From the NCBI GenBank assembly GCA_014859275.1, contig JACUUO010000004.1, forward strand, positions 1 to 46,773: a stretch of 46,773 nucleotides of DNA. Reading direction: 5' to 3'. The DNA comes from Actinomycetota bacterium (GTDB lineage: Bacteria; Actinomycetota; Aquicultoria; Aquicultorales; Aquicultoraceae). Positions within the stretch are counted from its first letter, which is position 1, and every line of letters begins with the position of its first letter. The position numbers were made by a program, and so were the translations under genes. Positions 34,027 through 46,309 of this stretch are shown here, one piece after another. A model generated the notes under the pieces. It was not told the DNA's origin. It saw only the letters and a list, made by a program, of their open reading frames with translations, and made no database searches.

Positions 34027-34407
34027 TTGGATGACTTAGATATGCCTATCCGCTATATGGAACAGCTCTCAGGTGAAGAGCAGCGCAGGCTTCATAAGAT
34101 CACAAAATCGTGCTCAGAAGCCAATTACTGCCTGAATTGTTGTGTGCAGAAGTGCGCCGTCGCCGACTTCTTGCAATTGTTAAGCAAGAAAGCATCAAAA
34201 GAGAGAATCTTAAAATTTCTACACAACGCCAGCGACGAGAAGAAGGATGAACTCAGAGATAAACCCCTCTATTGCATGGAGCAAGGATTCTGCGCTCTCT
34301 ACTGCATATCTGACTGCCCGATCGGTAAATTTGTAAGGGCATTAACTAGAGAACGTGCGCTCGGGCGCGATAATACAAGCGACCTTTACAGTAACGTTAT
34401 CTCCTAA
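34027..34407 (+). CDS. Cysteine-rich small protein of unknown function
   Basis: 126-residue soluble protein with ten cysteines, most in two matching clusters: YCLNCCVQKCAVADF and YCMEQGFCALYCISDCPIGKF. The internal repetition suggests two similar metal or Fe-S binding lobes. I do not recognise a family. Start TTG 34027 has GGAG 10 bp upstream; ATG 34042 is an alternative. It stands alone between the nrd genes and the convergent minus-strand operon. Confidence 0.75.
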   Translation: MDDLDMPIRYMEQLSGEEQRRLHKITKSCSEANYCLNCCVQKCAVADFLQLLSKKASKERILKFLHNASDEKKDELRDKPLYCMEQGFCALYCISDCPIGKFVRALTRERALGRDNTSDLYSNVIS

Positions 34408-34508: not shown

Positions 34509-34925
34509 CTATCCGCGCGATCTTTTAGGTAACCAGCCAACAAATGCAGCAACTATTAATGCTGCACCGGAAGTAGTTAGAATTGTTTTAGTGGTATGAC
34601 ATGCCATTGCTGGATTCTTGCATACACCGATTCCTAGATGTGTAGGTATTATTATGACAGCTATGCCCAGTGCCCCAAGCATTAGCGAAAGACTGCCCCA
34701 TCCATTTTTAGCTAATATAATTAAGAGACCATTAAAGGCTATCAGCAGTCCAAGAAACACCTCAGCAACTCCCATCCAATTGCACTTCATAGCAGCTGGC
34801 ATCCCACTTTTCATTTCCATCATACCCGTGCAAACGTGAGCTAAATTAAATGGCGTTAACGCAATTACAATGCCAACAAGCACACCTACCGCTCCTACTA
34901 ACTTCCAGACCCTTTCATTTCCCAT
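34509..34925 (-). CDS. DUF4418 family membrane protein
   Basis: 138-residue protein with four hydrophobic helices. Between helices it has conserved Cys/His/Met features of DUF4418: AHVCTGMMEMKSGMPAAMKCNWMG and GVCKNPAMACHTTK. The Met/Cys/His pattern could bind a soft metal such as copper, but this is inference. ATG at 34923-34925 is chosen because GGAGGG precedes it; an ATG at 34940 would lie before that site. It is the last gene of the minus-strand operon that begins with the DeoR/NosL-like regulator. Confidence 0.85.
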   Translation of the reverse strand: MGNERVWKLVGAVGVLVGIVIALTPFNLAHVCTGMMEMKSGMPAAMKCNWMGVAEVFLGLLIAFNGLLIILAKNGWGSLSLMLGALGIAVIIIPTHLGIGVCKNPAMACHTTKTILTTSGAALIVAAFVGWLPKRSRG

Positions 34926-34952
34926 CTGTTTACCCTCCATGTGTAAGTATTT

Positions 34953-35168
34953 TTATCTTTTTTTAATAGCCACTTTACTTAAAACAATCCCTGCTGCCAA
35001 TAGCAAAGTAGCCCCGCAACCGCCACAAGAAGTACAGGCTCCCGCGCATGATCTAGTTGAAAAAACTAGAAAAGAACCACTAAGCAATCCTATGGCTATG
35101 CCATAAAATCGCTGGTGGATGCCGATTACCATTTTGCTTAACTGATTGATTATTTCTTTTACTATCAA
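34953..35168 (-). CDS. Small cysteine-rich membrane protein
   Basis: About 71 residues, with two hydrophobic helices separated by the loop RSCAGACTSCGGCGA, which holds four cysteines with redox or metal-binding spacing. No family recognised. TTG at 35166-35168 is preferred, with AGAGGGTG six bp upstream; GTG at 35175-35177 would sit inside that ribosome-binding site. It lies between the membrane ferredoxin gene and the DUF4418 gene and is surely part of the same transcript. Confidence 0.7.
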   Translation of the reverse strand: MIVKEIINQLSKMVIGIHQRFYGIAIGLLSGSFLVFSTRSCAGACTSCGGCGATLLLAAGIVLSKVAIKKR

Positions 35169-35182
35169 GTTAAGCACCCTCT

Positions 35183-36085
35183 TTAATCCTTACCAGTCGC
35201 CTGAACAACCCCTGGAACCAAAAGCGTCATCTCGCTATCTACCCCGCGTGCATAACTGATCGCCCTATTGGGGCAAGCGGCTTTACACTCCCGGCAACCT
35301 ATGCAAGCGTGATAGTTTCGATTGGGCCCTGGGTTCATCTTGATGGCCCACATGGGACAGCGCTCAGCGCAGGTGCCGCATTCGATGCATTTTTCAGGAA
35401 TAAACCGCATTTTGTAAGTAAAGCCAAATTTGGCACCAACCCAGTGAAAGATGGATTGGGATGCCCCTACTGGGCAGACGTAGTTGCACCAACCACGACC
35501 GCCCTTGGTGAAAAGGCCAAAAATAACAAACCAGGTTAAGAAGGTTATTAACCCCGCACTAAAGGTCAGGTGATTAATCCCGCCGAAATTCCCAGCCATA
35601 AATGCTGTAGTTATGTCTTGAAGGGTAGCATATTGGCAATAGGCGCAGCTGATGTGCAGGCCGTAAAAGGAACTTGCAACAAAGCCAACCAGGAAACCAT
35701 ACCTGATGGCTGAAGGTTCGGTACTATTGCGCAAGTCAAGCTTAAACCGGTTGGGAATAATACGCCCTAAGAATTCAGGAACACCTCCGGCTGCGCACAA
35801 CCAGCCACAGAATAGAGGTCCGAACAAAAATGCAACGAATACCAACACAAAAGTAGTGAGAAGTAGCGGGTTTTCCAAAAACCTGATCCAGTTAGCCGGT
35901 TGGACAGTCCACTCTACCGGGTGCAGCAAGCAGGTATCGCCACATGAAGCCTTTTGAGTGGCTAAAGATCCTGGCTTTCCCGTTACCCAAAAGCTCAACC
36001 GGGTCAATAAAGCAAATGGAGTAAAGAAAAGGATAAAACCCAGAAAGATGGTGCTTAGTCGCTTAAACCAGTGAAAAGATCTCAA
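35183..36085 (-). CDS. NapH/NosR-like polytopic membrane ferredoxin
   Basis: 300-residue membrane protein with about five helices, two conserved loop motifs (FCGWLCAAGG and WCNYVCPVGASQ) and a C-terminal domain with two 4Fe-4S motifs (CIECGTCAERCP and CIGCRECKAACP). This is the NapH/NosR/CcoG-type layout, which passes electrons from the quinone pool across the membrane to periplasmic or assembly partners. It begins at TTG 36085, overlapping the upstream stop codon in a TTGA arrangement, with GGAG upstream. Neighbours suggest a role in delivering electrons to an outer-face metalloprotein. Confidence 0.9.
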   Translation of the reverse strand: MRSFHWFKRLSTIFLGFILFFTPFALLTRLSFWVTGKPGSLATQKASCGDTCLLHPVEWTVQPANWIRFLENPLLLTTFVLVFVAFLFGPLFCGWLCAAGGVPEFLGRIIPNRFKLDLRNSTEPSAIRYGFLVGFVASSFYGLHISCAYCQYATLQDITTAFMAGNFGGINHLTFSAGLITFLTWFVIFGLFTKGGRGWCNYVCPVGASQSIFHWVGAKFGFTYKMRFIPEKCIECGTCAERCPMWAIKMNPGPNRNYHACIGCRECKAACPNRAISYARGVDSEMTLLVPGVVQATGKD

Positions 36086-36675
36086 CGATCACACACTCCT
36101 TCACCGTGGCCTTCTGTAGACATCTCGCTATTTGATGTTTTAGAATTAGATATTTTAGAATTGGTTAACTTAATAGGGACATAAGCCAAAATACGTCCAG
36201 TATTCACATCGCTTATCTCCAATCCCCCGTTGTAAATGATCGCCTGTTGGCGATACTTCTGGGGTATGTGAAAGTATATTGAGAGCGGATACTTCATGCT
36301 CTCACCCGGTAAGAAAGGCCTGGCCACGGTTTTTGCGTTCTTATCCCAGGCTAGTTGCCGTGAATCCCAGGTAACTGGCAGTGAATTGTTTGCCAGAGAA
36401 AACTTTAGTTGTACCGGTTCGTTTCCCTCGTTAGTGATAGAGTTTGCTCTAACATGAATTGTCCAAGGCCGTAATACCTTCTTGGTAAAACCAAGGTCGG
36501 ACAGGTCAACTGTTAGCGGCCAGCTTTCAGCTGCTTCTTCTGCCGCCGAATTCAAGCTGACCATAAAATTCGGCGCCTCCTTTTTCATCGTGGATTCGCG
36601 ATAATAACCCGCCGTGATTATTAGCACAAAGCCCACGATCATGCTTAAAATGGTTATGGCTACTTTTGACTGCAT
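36082..36675 (-). CDS. Membrane-anchored extracytoplasmic protein of unknown function
   Basis: 197 residues: an N-terminal signal anchor (about 4-24), then a beta-rich domain. No cysteine occurs in the mature domain before the extreme C-terminus. The tail KLTNSKISNSKTSNSEMSTEG comes from an imperfect 15-bp direct repeat (about 36136-36166) and looks like recent slippage. Family not recognised. ATG 36675 is preferred over GTG 36681 because AAGGCGG lies 5 bp before it. Coupled by 4 bp to the membrane ferredoxin gene. Confidence 0.75.
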   Translation of the reverse strand: MQSKVAITILSMIVGFVLIITAGYYRESTMKKEAPNFMVSLNSAAEEAAESWPLTVDLSDLGFTKKVLRPWTIHVRANSITNEGNEPVQLKFSLANNSLPVTWDSRQLAWDKNAKTVARPFLPGESMKYPLSIYFHIPQKYRQQAIIYNGGLEISDVNTGRILAYVPIKLTNSKISNSKTSNSEMSTEGHGEGVCDR

Positions 36676-36714
36676 ACACACCGCCTTTACAATTTTATAA
36701 GTGACCCCTTTTTC

Positions 36715-37305
36715 TTAAACCGTTGGTGGCGACTTGTCGGTCCCACAACATTCCATTTTTACGTGGACTCTTTCCAATGCTTCGGAAAACGACAAAACTA
36801 AGCCGCCAAAACCTTTAACAAACCCTTCCGCATGCTCCTTTTTCCCAAAGGTGAGAACCTGCGGTTGGCAACAGCCGATATCTAACAACGCGTCCATAAC
36901 AAAATAAGCCATCGGCGCACTGATGGTTGTATGAAATAAGAAATCATGACAGATCGCTTGGATTGCTTTATCCCCTAACTGCTGGTGACGAAGAAGACCG
37001 CAATGAGCACAACAAGTAGCTTCTACCTTGTTTTCTGGTAAAATCAGCCGGTATGACAGCCTACGATCGATCTTTCGGTGACAGAAGACGCAATCATTGC
37101 TTCCTGGTGCATGTTCAGGCTCCTTTCTGGCAATTGTGATTCCACCGAATGTTTTAATCACTATTCCTTCTTCAACCAGTGGTTTTATATCACGGTGAAT
37201 CGTCATCTCGGAGACACCGAAAAGTTCGCTTAGTTCAGAGATCTTTATATTGTGCCGGGATCGGATCAGGTTTTTAATTCTTTCTCTACGCTCATTCGCT
37301 AACAT
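36715..37305 (-). CDS. DeoR-type regulator fused to a cysteine-rich NosL-like domain
   Basis: 196 residues. The N-terminal DeoR helix-turn-helix (about 5-60: RRERIKNLIRSRHNIKISELSELFGVSEMTIHRDIKPLVEEG) is clear. The expected sugar-phosphate sensor domain is absent. In its place is a domain with CVFC (72-75), CCAHC (98-102), Cys119, Cys145-Cys146 and CC at 186-187. Its second half, DFLFHTTISAPMAYFVMDAL then AEGFVKGFGGLVLSFSEAL, follows the pattern of NosL, the copper chaperone of nitrous-oxide reductase. A metal-sensing repressor is the simplest reading. It is the first gene of the minus-strand operon, and a phased repeat array covers its transcription start. Confidence 0.8.
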   Translation of the reverse strand: MLANERRERIKNLIRSRHNIKISELSELFGVSEMTIHRDIKPLVEEGIVIKTFGGITIARKEPEHAPGSNDCVFCHRKIDRRLSYRLILPENKVEATCCAHCGLLRHQQLGDKAIQAICHDFLFHTTISAPMAYFVMDALLDIGCCQPQVLTFGKKEHAEGFVKGFGGLVLSFSEALERVHVKMECCGTDKSPPTV

Positions 37306-37340: not shown

Positions 37341-37390
37341 CTAACAACCTATAACATACTGTAACAAACTATAACTAGCCGTAATCTATA
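37341..37390 (-). promoter_or_regulatory. 10-bp phased TAAC repeat array, likely operator
   Basis: Five successive 10-bp units read CTAACAACCT, ATAACATACT, GTAACAAACT, ATAACTAGCC and GTAATCTATA, each with TAAC or TAAT at positions 2-5. One more unit (TTCTAACC) lies just before. The array spans the expected start of the minus-strand operon. Helical phasing suggests cooperative repressor binding; TTCTAAC resembles half of the classical DeoR operator. Confidence 0.65.
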
Positions 37391-37412
37391 GTATTCCGGT
37401 AGGACTTGTCAA
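37385..37412 (-). promoter_or_regulatory. Promoter of the DeoR/NosL-like regulator operon
   Basis: On the minus strand TTGACA (37407-37412), 16-bp spacer, TATAGA (37385-37390), about 80 bp before the regulator gene. Confidence 0.65.
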
Positions 37413-37871: not shown

Positions 37872-38213
37872 ATGGGAAGTTTGTTTATTGTACTGAAAGC
37901 AGCGCCAGAGCAAGAAGAGCACGCGCATTTTGCTTGGAATCTGGCCCAGGCGGCGGAGGCACAGGGGCACAAGGTTACGATCCATATGTTTGGAGACGGG
38001 ATATTCTACCTGGTGCCCCATATGGAAGGAGTAGGGCCTGAGGGGTTAGCTGAAACCGAGGGTAGGGAGAACCTGAACCTAATGTATTGTAACCATAACG
38101 TGATACAGAGGGGTCTGGAAAATAAAGTCCTGGAGAGCGCAAGGAAAGCATCGACTCCTGATGCGTCCATGGAATTTTTAAATCACGACCGGACTCTTAT
38201 ATTTACAAGGTGA
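37872..38213 (+). CDS. DsrE/TusD-like sulfur-relay protein
   Basis: 113-residue DsrE-fold protein. It has the family turn FGDGIFYL and a Cys in LMYCNHNVIQRGL at the position of the sulfur-carrying cysteine of DsrE/TusD (CxxxxxRG pattern). It is first of three consecutive DsrE-superfamily genes, arranged like dsrE-dsrF-dsrH or tusDCB, which pass persulfide sulfur to or from TusA. AGAGGAGG lies upstream of ATG 37872. Sulfur-oxidation and tRNA-thiolation roles are both known for such trios. Confidence 0.82.
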   Translation: MGSLFIVLKAAPEQEEHAHFAWNLAQAAEAQGHKVTIHMFGDGIFYLVPHMEGVGPEGLAETEGRENLNLMYCNHNVIQRGLENKVLESARKASTPDASMEFLNHDRTLIFTR

Positions 38214-38224
38214 GGTGATTGATC

Positions 38225-38596
38225 TTGTCTGAGCCAATAAAGTTTTGCGCCGTTGTTAGCCAACCCCCGATTGGAACCAGGGACTCGTTAGAGATCCTAC
38301 GCTTCTCATTGGGACTGACGCTTCTGGGTAGCCACGTTGTTGAGATTCACACTGTTTTGGAGGGCGACGGTGTATACCACGCCCTAAACGAATTGCCGGA
38401 AAAAGTTCGTGGCAGGGACACATCCCGGTTAAGTGTAGTGGATGGTATAGATTTTGACATGCTCGTTTACGTTGTGCAGGAAGACCTGGCTGCTCGTGGC
38501 CTGGGTGAAGAAGACTTGGTTCCTGATGTGAAGGTCGTCCCGGCGCAACAGGTAGTGGAGATAGTAAGTCAGGCGAATACAACTCACTATCTGTAA
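38225..38596 (+). CDS. DsrF/TusC-like protein
   Basis: 123-residue DsrE-superfamily protein: LEGDGVYHAL is the shared GDG turn and DMLVYVVQEDLAARGL the second signature. The cysteine that carries sulfur in active members is replaced (VQEDLAARG), as in the structural DsrF/TusC and TusB subunits. Start TTG 38225 has GAGG 9 bp upstream; TTG 38219 is too close to that site. It begins 11 bp after the DsrE-like gene. Confidence 0.8.
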   Translation: MSEPIKFCAVVSQPPIGTRDSLEILRFSLGLTLLGSHVVEIHTVLEGDGVYHALNELPEKVRGRDTSRLSVVDGIDFDMLVYVVQEDLAARGLGEEDLVPDVKVVPAQQVVEIVSQANTTHYL

Positions 38597-38626
38597 GGCT
38601 GATTTAATGAGAGGAGGATTGGTTTT

Positions 38627-38944
38627 ATGGCAACAGTATGTGTAAGTGCTTTGCCATCCGGTGATGTTGGGCGCCGGAATCGCTTACTAAATTTAGTAAG
38701 CAGCTTGGCTGGAGCCGATGAAAACATTTCGCTTGTGCTCTATGGCGATGGTATTTACAGCCTGGTGAGCGGTAGCCAGGCGGCGGCAGAGTTGGCTGGT
38801 GCTCCAGTAAAAATATATGCCGTTGCAGGCGATGCCGAGGACCGGGGGCTGGCAGGGAGACTTATTCCTCAGGCGCAAGTGATTGATTATACACAGGTCG
38901 TTGAACTGATCATGGAGGCTGAGCATACAATCACTGGCGTCTGA
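38627..38944 (+). CDS. DsrH/TusB-like protein
   Basis: 105-residue third member of the trio, with YGDGIYSLVSG and a short C-terminal helix (VVELIMEAEHTI) similar to that of the preceding gene. A single cysteine near the N-terminus (Cys5) is the only candidate sulfur carrier. AGAGGAGG lies upstream of ATG 38627. With its two neighbours it could form a DsrEFH-type hexamer; stoichiometry is inference. Confidence 0.78.
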   Translation: MATVCVSALPSGDVGRRNRLLNLVSSLAGADENISLVLYGDGIYSLVSGSQAAAELAGAPVKIYAVAGDAEDRGLAGRLIPQAQVIDYTQVVELIMEAEHTITGV

Positions 38945-39037: not shown

Positions 39038-39137
39038 AAGGCACATTGAGGAAGGGGGGATAGGAAAGCAATTAAGGCAGCAGGAATCGTATTCTCGAAA
39101 AGCTCAAGTATGGGTTTAAAAAGAGAGGGTGAAAAAT

Positions 39138-40313
39138 TTGGGAAGCCTGAAAAAACTAAGCATTATAGTGATGGGGTTATTCCTGGTAATGATGTTGCTG
39201 GTAGCTGGTTGTGGTGGATCAACACCAGAGGGCAAAAAAGAAGGTACAACCCCCAAACCTGAAGAAGGGGGAGCATTGCTCAAAGGCACTGTTTATCTCC
39301 CCGGGATGGGTGGTCACATTGCCGTAGCCAACGTCGAGATCGATCCTTCGAATTCAGACGAACCGATAAAGATCGTTGGAAAGCTGGATAAGATCCACTT
39401 AGGCAACAAGGAAGAATGGGCAACTCACGATGTAAGAGTTGATAAGGAGGACAACAATGTTGCCTACTCGTCTTCTTATGTTAAAGACTCCAATGGAAAA
39501 ATTCGCGTAGCCAAAATTGATCTCGCCAACTTAGAAATGACACAAGAGGAACTTCTTGATGTCCACGAAAGACTTATCGAGCAACCCATGTACTGCGCCT
39601 CGGGCCAGAGTAAAGACATGTTTCTCCCGGTAATGATGGGATACGAGGGATGGATTGATGTTGTCAATAAAGAGTCGCTGGAGTTAAAGCACAGGGTCTT
39701 CTTTGATGACGATCAGATTACCAAGGACTACATCTTTGCTCACGGAGTCCACACGCCCGATATGAAACACTTTCTTCTATCGTTAAATGAAACCAGCAAG
39801 AACTTAGCAAAGAAAGCGCCACCTAGGGGTAACCCGAACTTCCTCTTGTACTTGCTGGATATGGATGAACTTACGCAAGGAAAGATAAAGATTGTAAAGA
39901 GCAGTTCTGTTGAGGCAGATCCTAATTCATCAATCGCTTTCCGCCAGCACTTCACCACCGATGGTAAGTACCTCCTCCAGTCGGGCAGGGACAGAGCTCT
40001 GGTTATCGATGCTGATACTCTAGAGACCGTTCGTAAGATTGACCTTCCGAAGGAATTTGATACCCAATATGAGTGCCACGATGTCATCGCAACCGCAGAC
40101 AATAAGTACGCCGTCCTGGCAGTACGCGTACCGCTCATGGTGGAAGGGGTAAACGACCCGATAATGGACGGAAAGATATTCCTCGTGGATATCGAGAAAG
40201 GAACGCTCATCGGTAACGGAACCTCGGTCTGTAGAGGCTGCCACGATGAATATCCGAGCCTAAAGACAAAGACCTCTGTTCTTTGTGGTATCGATGCTGT
40301 TTGGGAGAAGTAG
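39138..40313 (+). CDS. Beta-propeller lipoprotein with one CXXCH haem motif and recurrent histidine loops
   Basis: About 391 residues (numbers below count from GTG 39129). The signal peptide ends in the lipobox LVAGC with Cys28, then a Pro/Gly/Lys linker, so it is tethered outside the cytoplasm. The rest has repeated short beta segments like a six- or seven-bladed propeller. Histidines recur at blade starts: GGH63, TH100DVR, AH205GVH208, RQH274FTTDGK, CH317DV. CRGCH (368-372) near the C-terminus is a c-type haem motif. This pattern recalls metal-binding propellers such as nitrous-oxide reductase, cytochrome cd1 or methanethiol oxidase, but overall identity is not recognised and no cupredoxin domain is present. 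TTG 39138 is chosen because AGAGGGTGA (39123-39131) is its ribosome-binding site. A terminator follows. Confidence 0.8.
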   Translation: MGSLKKLSIIVMGLFLVMMLLVAGCGGSTPEGKKEGTTPKPEEGGALLKGTVYLPGMGGHIAVANVEIDPSNSDEPIKIVGKLDKIHLGNKEEWATHDVRVDKEDNNVAYSSSYVKDSNGKIRVAKIDLANLEMTQEELLDVHERLIEQPMYCASGQSKDMFLPVMMGYEGWIDVVNKESLELKHRVFFDDDQITKDYIFAHGVHTPDMKHFLLSLNETSKNLAKKAPPRGNPNFLLYLLDMDELTQGKIKIVKSSSVEADPNSSIAFRQHFTTDGKYLLQSGRDRALVIDADTLETVRKIDLPKEFDTQYECHDVIATADNKYAVLAVRVPLMVEGVNDPIMDGKIFLVDIEKGTLIGNGTSVCRGCHDEYPSLKTKTSVLCGIDAVWEK

Positions 40314-42651: not shown

Positions 42652-42952
42652 CTAGTACTCCACCAGAAACACTTAAACCTGTCAAAAATAATGCTCCAGT
42701 TTAATGAAGTTCGCACTCGCCCAGCCGATATACCCATCCTTTCTAAAATAAAAGGCCAGGCTTAGACACAACCACCATCCGTTTGATGAGAAGGCATGAT
42801 AACAGGATTCCAACCAGAAATGAAGGGAGGTGGAATTTAAGGTTTATCAAAAAGGCTCTAACAGAGCTTTAAATCAAGAGAGGAGTGATGCGATGAGGGC
42901 TGGATGGTACGAGAGAAGTTGTATTGGTAGAAAATATAAAGGAGGAGAAACG

Positions 42953-44074
42953 ATGAAGCGACGGCGACTCTGGTTGATCGTTCTTCTAGCGGTATACTTA
43001 ACTGCAGTGTGGGCGAGTGTCGCTATTGGGGAATCGACACATCCGTTAGCAGTGAGCGTAGAGAGCTTAAAGCAAAATCTAGATAAACCTGGTGTTATTA
43101 TAGTTGATATTCGTCCGGCTGAGGACTACCAGGCAGGTCATATTGCTGGTGCGATTAACATTGAGGTTGATAAGCTGCAGACGAAGTCCAACGCTATTCT
43201 TCATCCGGTTTCTAAGGTTGAGGAAATCCTGGGCAGTAGTGGTATTGACGGCTCGAAAGAGTTAGTGCTTTACGGTGAGGGTAAAGAGAAGGCCTTTCTG
43301 GCACTCTGGATGCTAGATCATCTTGGAACGTCCAATGTCCGTGTCCTGGACGGCGGCATTGAGGCATGGAAGGCGGCCAACGGCAAGATGACTTCTGACG
43401 CCAGGGCGCTCCCGGCAACAACCTTCCGCGCTAATCCAGACCCAGCCCGGTACGCGACCACGCAACAGGTACTTGATAGCACAAAGGATCCCAACGTGCA
43501 GATCGTGGACGTGCGTACCCCGGATGAGTTTAAAGGAGAAGATATTCGCAGCCTGCGGGGCGGCCACATCCCAGGAGCTATCAACATACCCTACGAGGAG
43601 AACTTCCAGGGTGAAGGGACTGTCCTCAAGCCCCTAGACGAGTTGGAAAAACTATATGCTGCCAAGCTCGATAAGAGCAAGAATATCGTAGTATACTGCC
43701 AGACCGGCACGCGCTCAACCAACACCTACTTCATCCTACGTGAACTCGGCTATAACGTTCGAAATTACGATGCTTCATGGATCGAGTGGGGGAGCAATTT
43801 CAGCCTACCGATCGAAAACGCGACATACTATAATTTCGCCAAGGTCAATAAAACCTTAAAAGAACTCAGTGCGCCCGCAGCGGGCAGCAGTGCTCCTTCT
43901 CCGGAAGCTGGTAAGGCTGAACCAATTGCCCAAGAGTCGGGTACTACTAGAACATCGGGAGTCGGACCCTATATACTAGCCTTTATTGCTTTGGCGGTGG
44001 CGGTGGCGGCTTTGCTTCGCCGACCTATTTCTGAGGTCAAGATGCCGAGAACGTCATCCGCGAAGGTATCTTGA
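42953..44074 (+). CDS. Membrane-anchored, exported two-domain rhodanese (thiosulfate sulfurtransferase type)
   Basis: 373 residues. An N-terminal signal sequence (about 5-26) is followed by an inactive rhodanese domain (about 33-145; ELVLYGEGKEKA lacks the catalytic Cys) and an active one (about 165-285) with Cys249 in VVYCQTGTRS and the WIEWGS signature of SseA/TST enzymes. A Pro/Ala/Ser linker, a C-terminal membrane helix (about 337-356) and a short basic tail follow. It would move sulfane sulfur from thiosulfate or polysulfide to a thiol acceptor outside the cytoplasm. Start ATG 42953 has GGAGGAG 5 bp upstream; in-frame ATG 42893 also has a site. It lies directly before the yeeE-tusA unit. 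Confidence 0.9.
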   Translation: MKRRRLWLIVLLAVYLTAVWASVAIGESTHPLAVSVESLKQNLDKPGVIIVDIRPAEDYQAGHIAGAINIEVDKLQTKSNAILHPVSKVEEILGSSGIDGSKELVLYGEGKEKAFLALWMLDHLGTSNVRVLDGGIEAWKAANGKMTSDARALPATTFRANPDPARYATTQQVLDSTKDPNVQIVDVRTPDEFKGEDIRSLRGGHIPGAINIPYEENFQGEGTVLKPLDELEKLYAAKLDKSKNIVVYCQTGTRSTNTYFILRELGYNVRNYDASWIEWGSNFSLPIENATYYNFAKVNKTLKELSAPAAGSSAPSPEAGKAEPIAQESGTTRTSGVGPYILAFIALAVAVAALLRRPISEVKMPRTSSAKVS

Positions 44075-44409: not shown

Positions 44410-44833
44410 ACAAAAGATAGCACCCTTATTAAGTGGCAGAGCTATTTCAACTGCATATAGCAGTATCTAGCTGCTACGTAATGGTATATAGCTGTTGTGC
44501 AACAGCACAGCTCACTGTCCGGTTATACTTACCCGGGTATTGCAACCTTACTGCACCTGTGTTACGGATATTATATTACTATCGCAGGTCAATCCGGTAT
44601 CTTAATAAGGCAGCGGGCAATTGCTAAAGGACTACCATTTCCTAGTAATTCTATATGCATATTATCGTGTATCGTATTGACTTTGCTTGATCTTTTACTA
44701 TACGATGACTTACAAATATCTAACAAACTAACCAACAGGGAGGGATAAAATAGGGAATTAAAATAGGGAATATAAGCTTTATAAGAAGCAGTTGCGACAG
44801 GAAGGAAAACTTAAAAGGGAGGGATATATAAGA
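44410..44833 (+). promoter_or_regulatory. Leader of the yeeE-tusA unit, a diverged copy of the rhodanese leader
   Basis: 44521-44540 aligns with 42320-42339 (16 of 20) and 44573-44596 with 42361-42384 (22 of 24). The copied promoter is TTAATA (44602-44607), 17-bp spacer, TAAAGG (44625-44630), weaker than its counterpart. No gene in this stretch; GGGAGGG (44817-44823) is the ribosome-binding site of the transporter. Confidence 0.65.
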
Positions 44834-46309
44834 GTGGAAACGATCGACAAAGTAAGCGCTAAAACGAATAACAAGGTGGGCTTGGGATCAACTGACAAGC
44901 GTAGTCTATTCTGGGTTTTTTTCATTTTAGGTCTCCTTATTCTTACTAGTCTGGTGTATGCTCAAGCCGACAGGTATTACATGTATTTAGTCGTATATAT
45001 GTGGTTTGGTTTGACTTACGGGATGATGCTTCAATATGGTCGGTTCTGTATGGCGTCGGCCTCGCGAGATCTCTTTGCCGCTGGAGTCCCGAGGATGGCA
45101 GTAGGTATTATGGTGGCGCTTGTATTTTTCAGCCTGGTGCAAGCAATACTACATGCTACTGATATGAGTACCTTCACCCCAGCACCTTTCGGTATTCACA
45201 TGCCAATTGCGGGGATGATCTTCGGTATTGGAATGGTGCTTGCCGGTGGTTGTGCTTCAGGTACACTGTATAAGGTCGGTGAGGGAAATGGAACCTCTTT
45301 CCTAGCGCTTTTGGGGATTTGCTTTGGCCAGGCAATCTTTGCAATTGCAGGTGGGCCATTAAGGTCTCTCCTTCCCCAATCCTGGATAGAGTCATCAGCC
45401 GCAAAAGGCCTTCCCCCCGAGATGGTAAACTCTTGGTTTGATGTATATCTTACCGGCTATGTATGGAATCAACCAACAATTCAAATATCTAAGACGAAAT
45501 TTATAGAAAATACCTTTCCCGGGGCATCCGCGTACTTTGTGGGCGATGCGCTACTAAATGCTATTATACCGGCAATATTATTACTAACGCTGATTTATAT
45601 TGCTGTAGTCAGAAAAGGCTTTATTAAGAAAATAAAGAAAGCCAAGGGCAGCAGCAGCTTGCGTGATGACCTTGCCGGGTTCTGGAGCATGATTACCGCA
45701 TCCAAGAGAACGACCATAATGGGTGTACTGATCGGCATCACAGCCGGACTTCATATCTGGGTATTAGCTGGGATGCAAAAGAAATTTGCAATTAGCAATT
45801 TCGGTGAGCTTCTGACGAGGATGGGACATGCAGGAGATGTTTCCATAAGAGGCACGGTCTTTGATCCTGGATACTGGTATATCACCACGCAGGAGGCCCA
45901 GTTTGCCGCCTGGATAATGGAGAAATTTGGCATTGATATGCGATCCAATGTTTTCTTTGGCGTCGTGAACGGTATCCCTGAACTCTGGCGTAACCCAGCA
46001 CTCTGGATGTCGATAGGCATTATATTTGGCGCAGCGATCATTGCTCTGATAAATAAAGAGTTCAAGCTTAAATTACCAAAAGGCGAGCTTATCGCTCTTG
46101 GAATCATCGGTGGACTATTGATGGGAATGGGTTCCAGGCCCTCTCTTGGATGTAATATTGGTGCTTTCTTTATCCGTGCAGCCGGAGGGGACCCTAATGG
46201 CTGGCTATATTTATTGGGTATGGCAGCCGGTGCATTTGTAGGGGTTAAGTGGCTCAACTGGTATACGGAACGGAAGATGGAAAAGCAAATGCAAGCCTTT
46301 GACATATAG
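44834..46309 (+). CDS. YeeE/YedE family sulfur (thiosulfate) transporter, TsuA-like
   Basis: 491-residue polytopic membrane protein, about nine or ten helices. The conserved cysteine motifs of the family are present: YGRFCMAS (Cys72), LAGGCASGTLYKVGEG (Cys140) and RPSLGCNIGAFF (Cys440), which in characterised TsuA relay thiosulfate through the pore by S-S/S-H interactions. Start GTG 44834 follows GGGAGGG by 10 bp; TTG 44792 is possible but poorly supported. tusA follows 30 bp downstream, the classic transporter plus sulfur-carrier pair. Confidence 0.93.
   Translation: METIDKVSAKTNNKVGLGSTDKRSLFWVFFILGLLILTSLVYAQADRYYMYLVVYMWFGLTYGMMLQYGRFCMASASRDLFAAGVPRMAVGIMVALVFFSLVQAILHATDMSTFTPAPFGIHMPIAGMIFGIGMVLAGGCASGTLYKVGEGNGTSFLALLGICFGQAIFAIAGGPLRSLLPQSWIESSAAKGLPPEMVNSWFDVYLTGYVWNQPTIQISKTKFIENTFPGASAYFVGDALLNAIIPAILLLTLIYIAVVRKGFIKKIKKAKGSSSLRDDLAGFWSMITASKRTTIMGVLIGITAGLHIWVLAGMQKKFAISNFGELLTRMGHAGDVSIRGTVFDPGYWYITTQEAQFAAWIMEKFGIDMRSNVFFGVVNGIPELWRNPALWMSIGIIFGAAIIALINKEFKLKLPKGELIALGIIGGLLMGMGSRPSLGCNIGAFFIRAAGGDPNGWLYLLGMAAGAFVGVKWLNWYTERKMEKQMQAFDI

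Follow-up and report, generated by a model that had tools for sequence, protein, structure and literature searches.

Introduction

The ycnKJI operon of Bacillus is a copper-uptake operon, in which YcnJ is a CopC-CopD protein and YcnI a DUF1775 protein. Its first gene product in Bacillus subtilis, YcnK, has been reported to act as a repressor in a Cu-dependent manner (PMC8424229, PMC12154828), and the papers disagree on the direction in which the metal acts: copper is reported to activate YcnK (PMC8424229), whereas one recent paper uses the opposite wording, that copper antagonizes YcnK (PMC13344008). Two other described systems bear on the locus studied here, namely NosL, a Cu(I) chaperone (PMC7558416), and CcoG, a cupric reductase whose C-terminal domain is of the Ig type (PMC7558416). 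The title of a study cited in the latter source (Taubner 2006) describes apo-NosL via its structural homology to MerB.

Here we describe a predicted regulator encoded in a stretch of 46,773 nt (hereafter, the window) of contig JACUUO010000004.1 from an Actinomycetota bacterium (GCA_014859275.1; this genome is referred to as G000). A first-pass annotation of the window had described the protein as a DeoR helix-turn-helix in which the usual sensor is replaced by a cysteine-rich domain patterned like NosL, and had proposed that it is a metal or redox sensor.

Results

A predicted NosL-fold domain follows a DeoR winged helix

The gene is the following:

36715..37305, minus strand: YcnK-type regulator ORF of 196 aa with an ATG start; DeoR winged helix at residues ~6-60 and predicted NosL-fold sensor at ~68-188

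A Pfam profile search placed HTH_DeoR (PF08220) at residues 6-60 (7e-14), in agreement with the helix-turn-helix previously assigned to the N-terminus. The replacement of the usual DeoR sensor was also borne out: a profile search for a C-terminal DeoR sensor domain returned no match at E<=1, and the ~125 residues that follow the winged helix contain ten cysteines, at positions 72, 75, 98, 99, 102, 119, 145, 146, 186, and 187. The regulator shares its N-terminal winged helix with DeoR/GlpR family repressors but is without their sugar-phosphate-binding sensor domain. Alignment of 22 homologues revealed that seven of the cysteines (C72, C75, C98, C99, C102, C145, and C146) are invariant, indicating that the ten-cysteine pattern is not due to chance.

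When the regulator alone was searched with the NosL family profile (PF05573), it scored below the curated threshold (E=0.0027, 18.5 bits; cut-off 24), and the NosL assignment therefore needed a stronger test. The same profile matched 21 of the 22 homologues at E<=0.01 (best 1.8e-7), and two close relatives of the regulator exceeded the cut-off. Profile-profile comparison (hhalign) of the 22 homologues with four NosL lipoproteins gave a probability of 95% over 108 columns and aligned the CxxC of the regulator family with the CxxC of NosL. In a Foldseek search with the AlphaFold model of the regulator (pLDDT 90), the top PDB match was NosL of Shewanella denitrificans (7og7; E=6.6e-6, TM 0.67 over target) and the next was NosL in the NosDFYL complex, with MerB structures ranking after the NosL structures. 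Of the checks that had been proposed, the structural comparison upheld the NosL-like patterning, and the family profile search did so for the homologues and, for the regulator by itself, only below the cut-off. Taken with the conservation and the profile-profile result, the C-terminal domain is, as judged from model and profiles, a NosL fold.

The sensor domain has the fold of the NosL copper chaperone and the position of its CxxC. In contrast to NosL, which is an exported lipoprotein with a CxxCxM Cu(I) site, the regulator is predicted to be cytosolic, is without a lipoprotein signal and without a methionine after its CxxC, carries additional CCxHC and CC motifs, and is fused to a DNA-binding domain. 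The fold, together with the Cu(I) chaperone function of NosL (PMC7558416), could also fit a NosL-type protein that chaperones or stores copper, bears a DNA-binding domain, and is not mainly a regulator. We regard this as highly improbable, given that no signal peptide or lipobox was found in the protein, that the DeoR winged helix is intact, that YcnK repressors have been characterised (PMC8424229), and that a predicted repeat operator lies at its own promoter and before a second gene (see below).

The regulator has the architecture of YcnK

By sequence comparison, the regulator has the architecture of YcnK of B. subtilis, so that its sensor design is one already known. Both combine a DeoR winged helix with a NosL-fold, Cys-rich domain bearing the same invariant cysteines, and both are encoded by the first gene of an operon, which the regulator probably autoregulates. 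A genome scan for homologues returned mostly Bacillales, in which the homologues are 37-62% identical with the same cysteines; the NosL family search gave a match in the B. subtilis control genome too. Homologues from Brevibacillus massiliensis (L037; 57% identical) and Bacillus massiliglaciei (L044; 54%) are followed by a CopC-CopD fusion and then by a DUF1775 gene, which is the ycnKJI order, and CopC-CopD is encoded downstream of the Bacillales homologues L060 and L067, in L067 as the next gene. The cysteine set CxxC, CCxHC, and CC is common to the regulator and to homologues in ycnKJI-type operons (including L037, L044, and L067), and the sequence flanking the seven invariant cysteines is also kept when compared to YcnK proteins of copper operons. 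Sco and YtkA genes neighbour the homologues L035, L036, and L052, DsbD-like and cupredoxin genes neighbour L032 and L045, and many Bacillales homologues are also found without the CopC-CopD and DUF1775 operon context.

The novelty that the first-pass annotation implied for the DeoR-NosL fusion did not hold up, since the fusion is known as YcnK and Bacillales homologues head ycnKJI-type operons. The new element is apparently the context and the predicted regulon of the regulator. As for the proposed metal or redox sensor, the metal part was retained on the basis of profile, structure, and conservation, and kinship to the YcnK copper repressors narrows the signal to probably copper; we infer copper as the signal from homology to these relatives.

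In the course of this comparison, we observed that L032 (CP031730.1), a Stenotrophomonas plasmid record, groups a DeoR-NosL gene with DsbD-like and cupredoxin genes in a cluster that hardly differs from the one in Lysinibacillus (L045), a sign of contamination or transfer.

Distribution and copper machinery

Among 296 genomes of the phylum, a full-length homologue of the regulator was present in two, G000 and G191 (same family); the other listed matches covered the winged helix and little beyond. No relatives were found in a scan of viral contigs. In a phylogenetic tree that included few non-Bacillales sequences, the G000 and G191 proteins were nested, with modest support, among the sampled Bacillales, a placement that suggests transfer of the regulator.

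We then searched G000 and G191 for copper machinery: no CopD importer was detected in either genome, and neither a heme-copper oxidase nor L-NosZ was found. The usual Bacillus target of YcnK therefore appears to be missing from both, and, since heme-copper oxidase and L-NosZ are absent, a need for copper is unproven.

A 10-bp GTTA repeat at the promoter

The following elements were predicted upstream of the regulator gene:

37383..37412, minus strand: predicted sigma-70-type promoter (TTGACA ... TATAGATT)
37342..37375, minus strand: predicted operator of four GTTA units in a 10-bp register (GTTATAGTTT GTTACAGTAT GTTATAGGTT GTTA), shortly after the -10

The promoter of the G191 gene is alike in its -35, spacer core (TACCGGAATA), and -10, and has three GTTA units at the same place. 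Three GTT at exact 10-bp steps were present upstream of 9 of 34 ycnK genes, all nine in the clade that includes the window protein. In 500 shuffles the mean was 0.24 and the maximum 3; these figures somewhat overstate the case, as the pattern was picked post hoc and the promoters are related. In the same 34 regions, the repeat was found once on the opposite strand, and no other single period tested gave more than one case. Since ycnK genes of the B. subtilis-like clade are without the repeat, we rejected it as a general YcnK operator, and it distinguishes the present regulator from YcnK of those genomes.

A second site precedes a split-Soret cytochrome c-like gene

We searched the whole of G000 for triplets of GTTA units, allowing one mismatch and using the reversed pattern as control. 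This gave 14 matches in comparison to 10 for the control, which is chance frequency and renders single three-unit matches meaningless. One such site in the related genome (G191:C33:1773-1796) was rejected as a target, as no gene lies downstream in the right direction. Overlapping in-register matches occurred at only two places in G000, the window operator and C167:6404-6437. The latter has four in-register units and is identical to the window operator in 34 of 40 positions, and the next independent match within the window and C167 reaches 24/40. The C167 site lies ~100 bases upstream of a gene that resembles split-Soret cytochrome c, and a homologue of this gene is located directly 3' of the regulator gene in G191. 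The link between regulator and split-Soret gene was thus found twice, as a DNA site in G000 and as operon order in G191. The predicted second target is a homologue of the split-Soret cytochrome c of Desulfovibrio (1h21; 2.6e-42); it differs in a score of 199 bits, below the NCBIfam equivalog cut-off of 400, and in its predicted TAT signal, actinobacterial host, and predicted YcnK-type control.

The chance frequency of the three-unit matches (14 vs 10) raises the question of whether the second operator arose by coincidence, and with it the link to a regulon, so that the regulator would control its own operon only. This appears improbable to us, as the C167 site consists of four units with 34/40 identity and stands before the gene whose homologue comes directly after the regulator gene in G191, and as no operator was found upstream of the split-Soret gene of G060, a genome without the regulator.

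G000 also contains a second, shorter or partial split-Soret cytochrome c-like ORF of 153 aa (L104; G000:C105:6118-6492), before which no operator was found.

Two downstream genes resemble a split CcoG

The regulator gene heads a putative operon. The next four genes run in the same direction and either overlap or are separated by short gaps:

36082..36681, minus strand: membrane-anchored, Ig-like protein of 199 aa (best fold match 2r39, low-confidence model)
35183..36085, minus strand: NapH/CcoG-like membrane polyferredoxin of 300 aa with two 4Fe-4S motifs, overlapping the end of the Ig-like gene
34953..35177, minus strand: small Cys-rich membrane protein (RSCAGACTSCGGCG), with a homologue at the same position in G191
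34509..34940, minus strand: DUF4418 membrane protein with a Cys/Met-rich stretch (CTGMMEMKSGMPAAMKC)

Fer4_5, Fer4, and NapH-type profiles matched the polyferredoxin. For the 199-aa protein, an Ig-like domain as in CcoG was expected before the fold search, in which the FixG-related Ig domain 2r39 was the sole match below 1e-3 (pLDDT of the model, 60). This protein was present in only 2 of the 296 phylum genomes, the same two that have the full-length regulator. In G191, the Ig-like gene is followed by a NapH-like gene and a small Cys-rich gene on a contig without the regulator, and no clear repeat operator was found before this module. The NapH-like gene of G191 (L096:1828-2634, G191:C37) is interrupted by frameshifts, which may reflect a MAG assembly error or a real pseudogene.

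Given the match to 2r39, the NapH-like polyferredoxin, and the presence of an Ig domain in CcoG, the pair looks like a CcoG whose parts are encoded by two genes. Together with the Cys-rich peptide and DUF4418, it would plausibly form a cupric reductase accompanied by an accessory membrane protein. The pair shares with the CcoG/FixG cupric reductase a membrane polyferredoxin of the NapH-like kind that carries two 4Fe-4S motifs; an extracytoplasmic domain of the Ig type may be a further common feature, going by the fold match of the low-confidence model. Unlike CcoG/FixG, the pair is encoded by two genes, with that for the Ig-like protein placed ahead of that for the polyferredoxin, the genome is without a cbb3 oxidase, and the FixG C-terminal Pfam model (FixG_C) did not match the Ig-like protein. 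In contrast to YcnK, whose operon encodes CopC-CopD and DUF1775 proteins, the operon of the regulator is without these, and its predicted targets are the split CcoG-like module, DUF4418, and the split-Soret cytochrome c.

Such targets could also be expected of a YcnK-family sensor that has been retuned to another thiophilic metal (for instance Hg, Ag, Zn, or Cd) or to the redox state of thiols and controls anaerobic electron-transfer proteins instead of copper uptake. The polyferredoxin and the split-Soret cytochrome c are redox proteins, the genome is without CopD, heme-copper oxidase, and L-NosZ, the organomercury lyase MerB is similar in structure to the NosL fold, and sulfur-handling genes lie nearby. 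Retention of the seven invariant cysteines and their flanks as in YcnK proteins of copper operons, together with the copper linkage of the nearest relatives, argues against retuning, which we consider unlikely.

Proposed mode of regulation

On sequence and model evidence, the regulator is likely to be a YcnK-family repressor that acts in the cytosol, senses copper, and controls its own gene, with the CcoG-like module and the split-Soret cytochrome c as its predicted regulon. The NosL-like domain would bind Cu(I) via the CxxC, CCxHC, and CC cysteines, and metal loading would set the affinity of the winged helix for the tandem GTTA sites. These sites follow the -10 closely and would share one DNA face. 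When copper is sufficient, transcription would be blocked; when it is scarce, the Ig-like protein, the NapH-like polyferredoxin, the Cys-rich peptide, and the DUF4418 protein would be made, as would the secreted split-Soret cytochrome c. In Bacillus, YcnK controls the CopC-CopD/DUF1775 uptake system, which appears to be missing from G000; the CcoG-like module and the cytochrome would take its place.

More tentatively, a YcnK copper repressor that was brought into an actinobacterial lineage without CopD-type importers or heme-copper oxidases could control a two-protein CcoG-like cupric reductase module, DUF4418, and split-Soret cytochrome c, a reading that is possible and in which we place restrained confidence. 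If true, these poorly understood proteins would serve to acquire copper or take part in redox chemistry that responds to copper. Such a regulon would provide a first regulatory clue to the function of split-Soret cytochrome c and DUF4418, the CcoG-like reductase would suggest itself as another kind of partner in the uptake of copper, and the 10-bp GTTA repeats would serve as a simple DNA signature for finding further YcnK-type targets.

Other genes of the window

A 126-aa Cys-rich ORF (CLNCCVQKC, CALYCISDC) is present at 34027-34407 (plus strand), for which profile searches gave no credible family match. At 39129-40313 (plus strand), we observed a putative lipoprotein, perhaps a beta-propeller, with a C-terminal CxxCH. 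Its match to L-NosZ was 4e-4 with 19 bits (cut-off 700), and it was rejected as an N2O reductase, as it has no PDB relative and the genome has no L-NosZ. The window also contains a sulfur-handling neighbourhood (37872-38944, 42830-44074, and 44792-46309; plus strand), comprising three DsrE/DsrH-like (TusBCD-like) ORFs recognised by profile matches and, as read from the sequence, an apparent protein with two rhodanese domains and a YeeE/YedE-like transporter.
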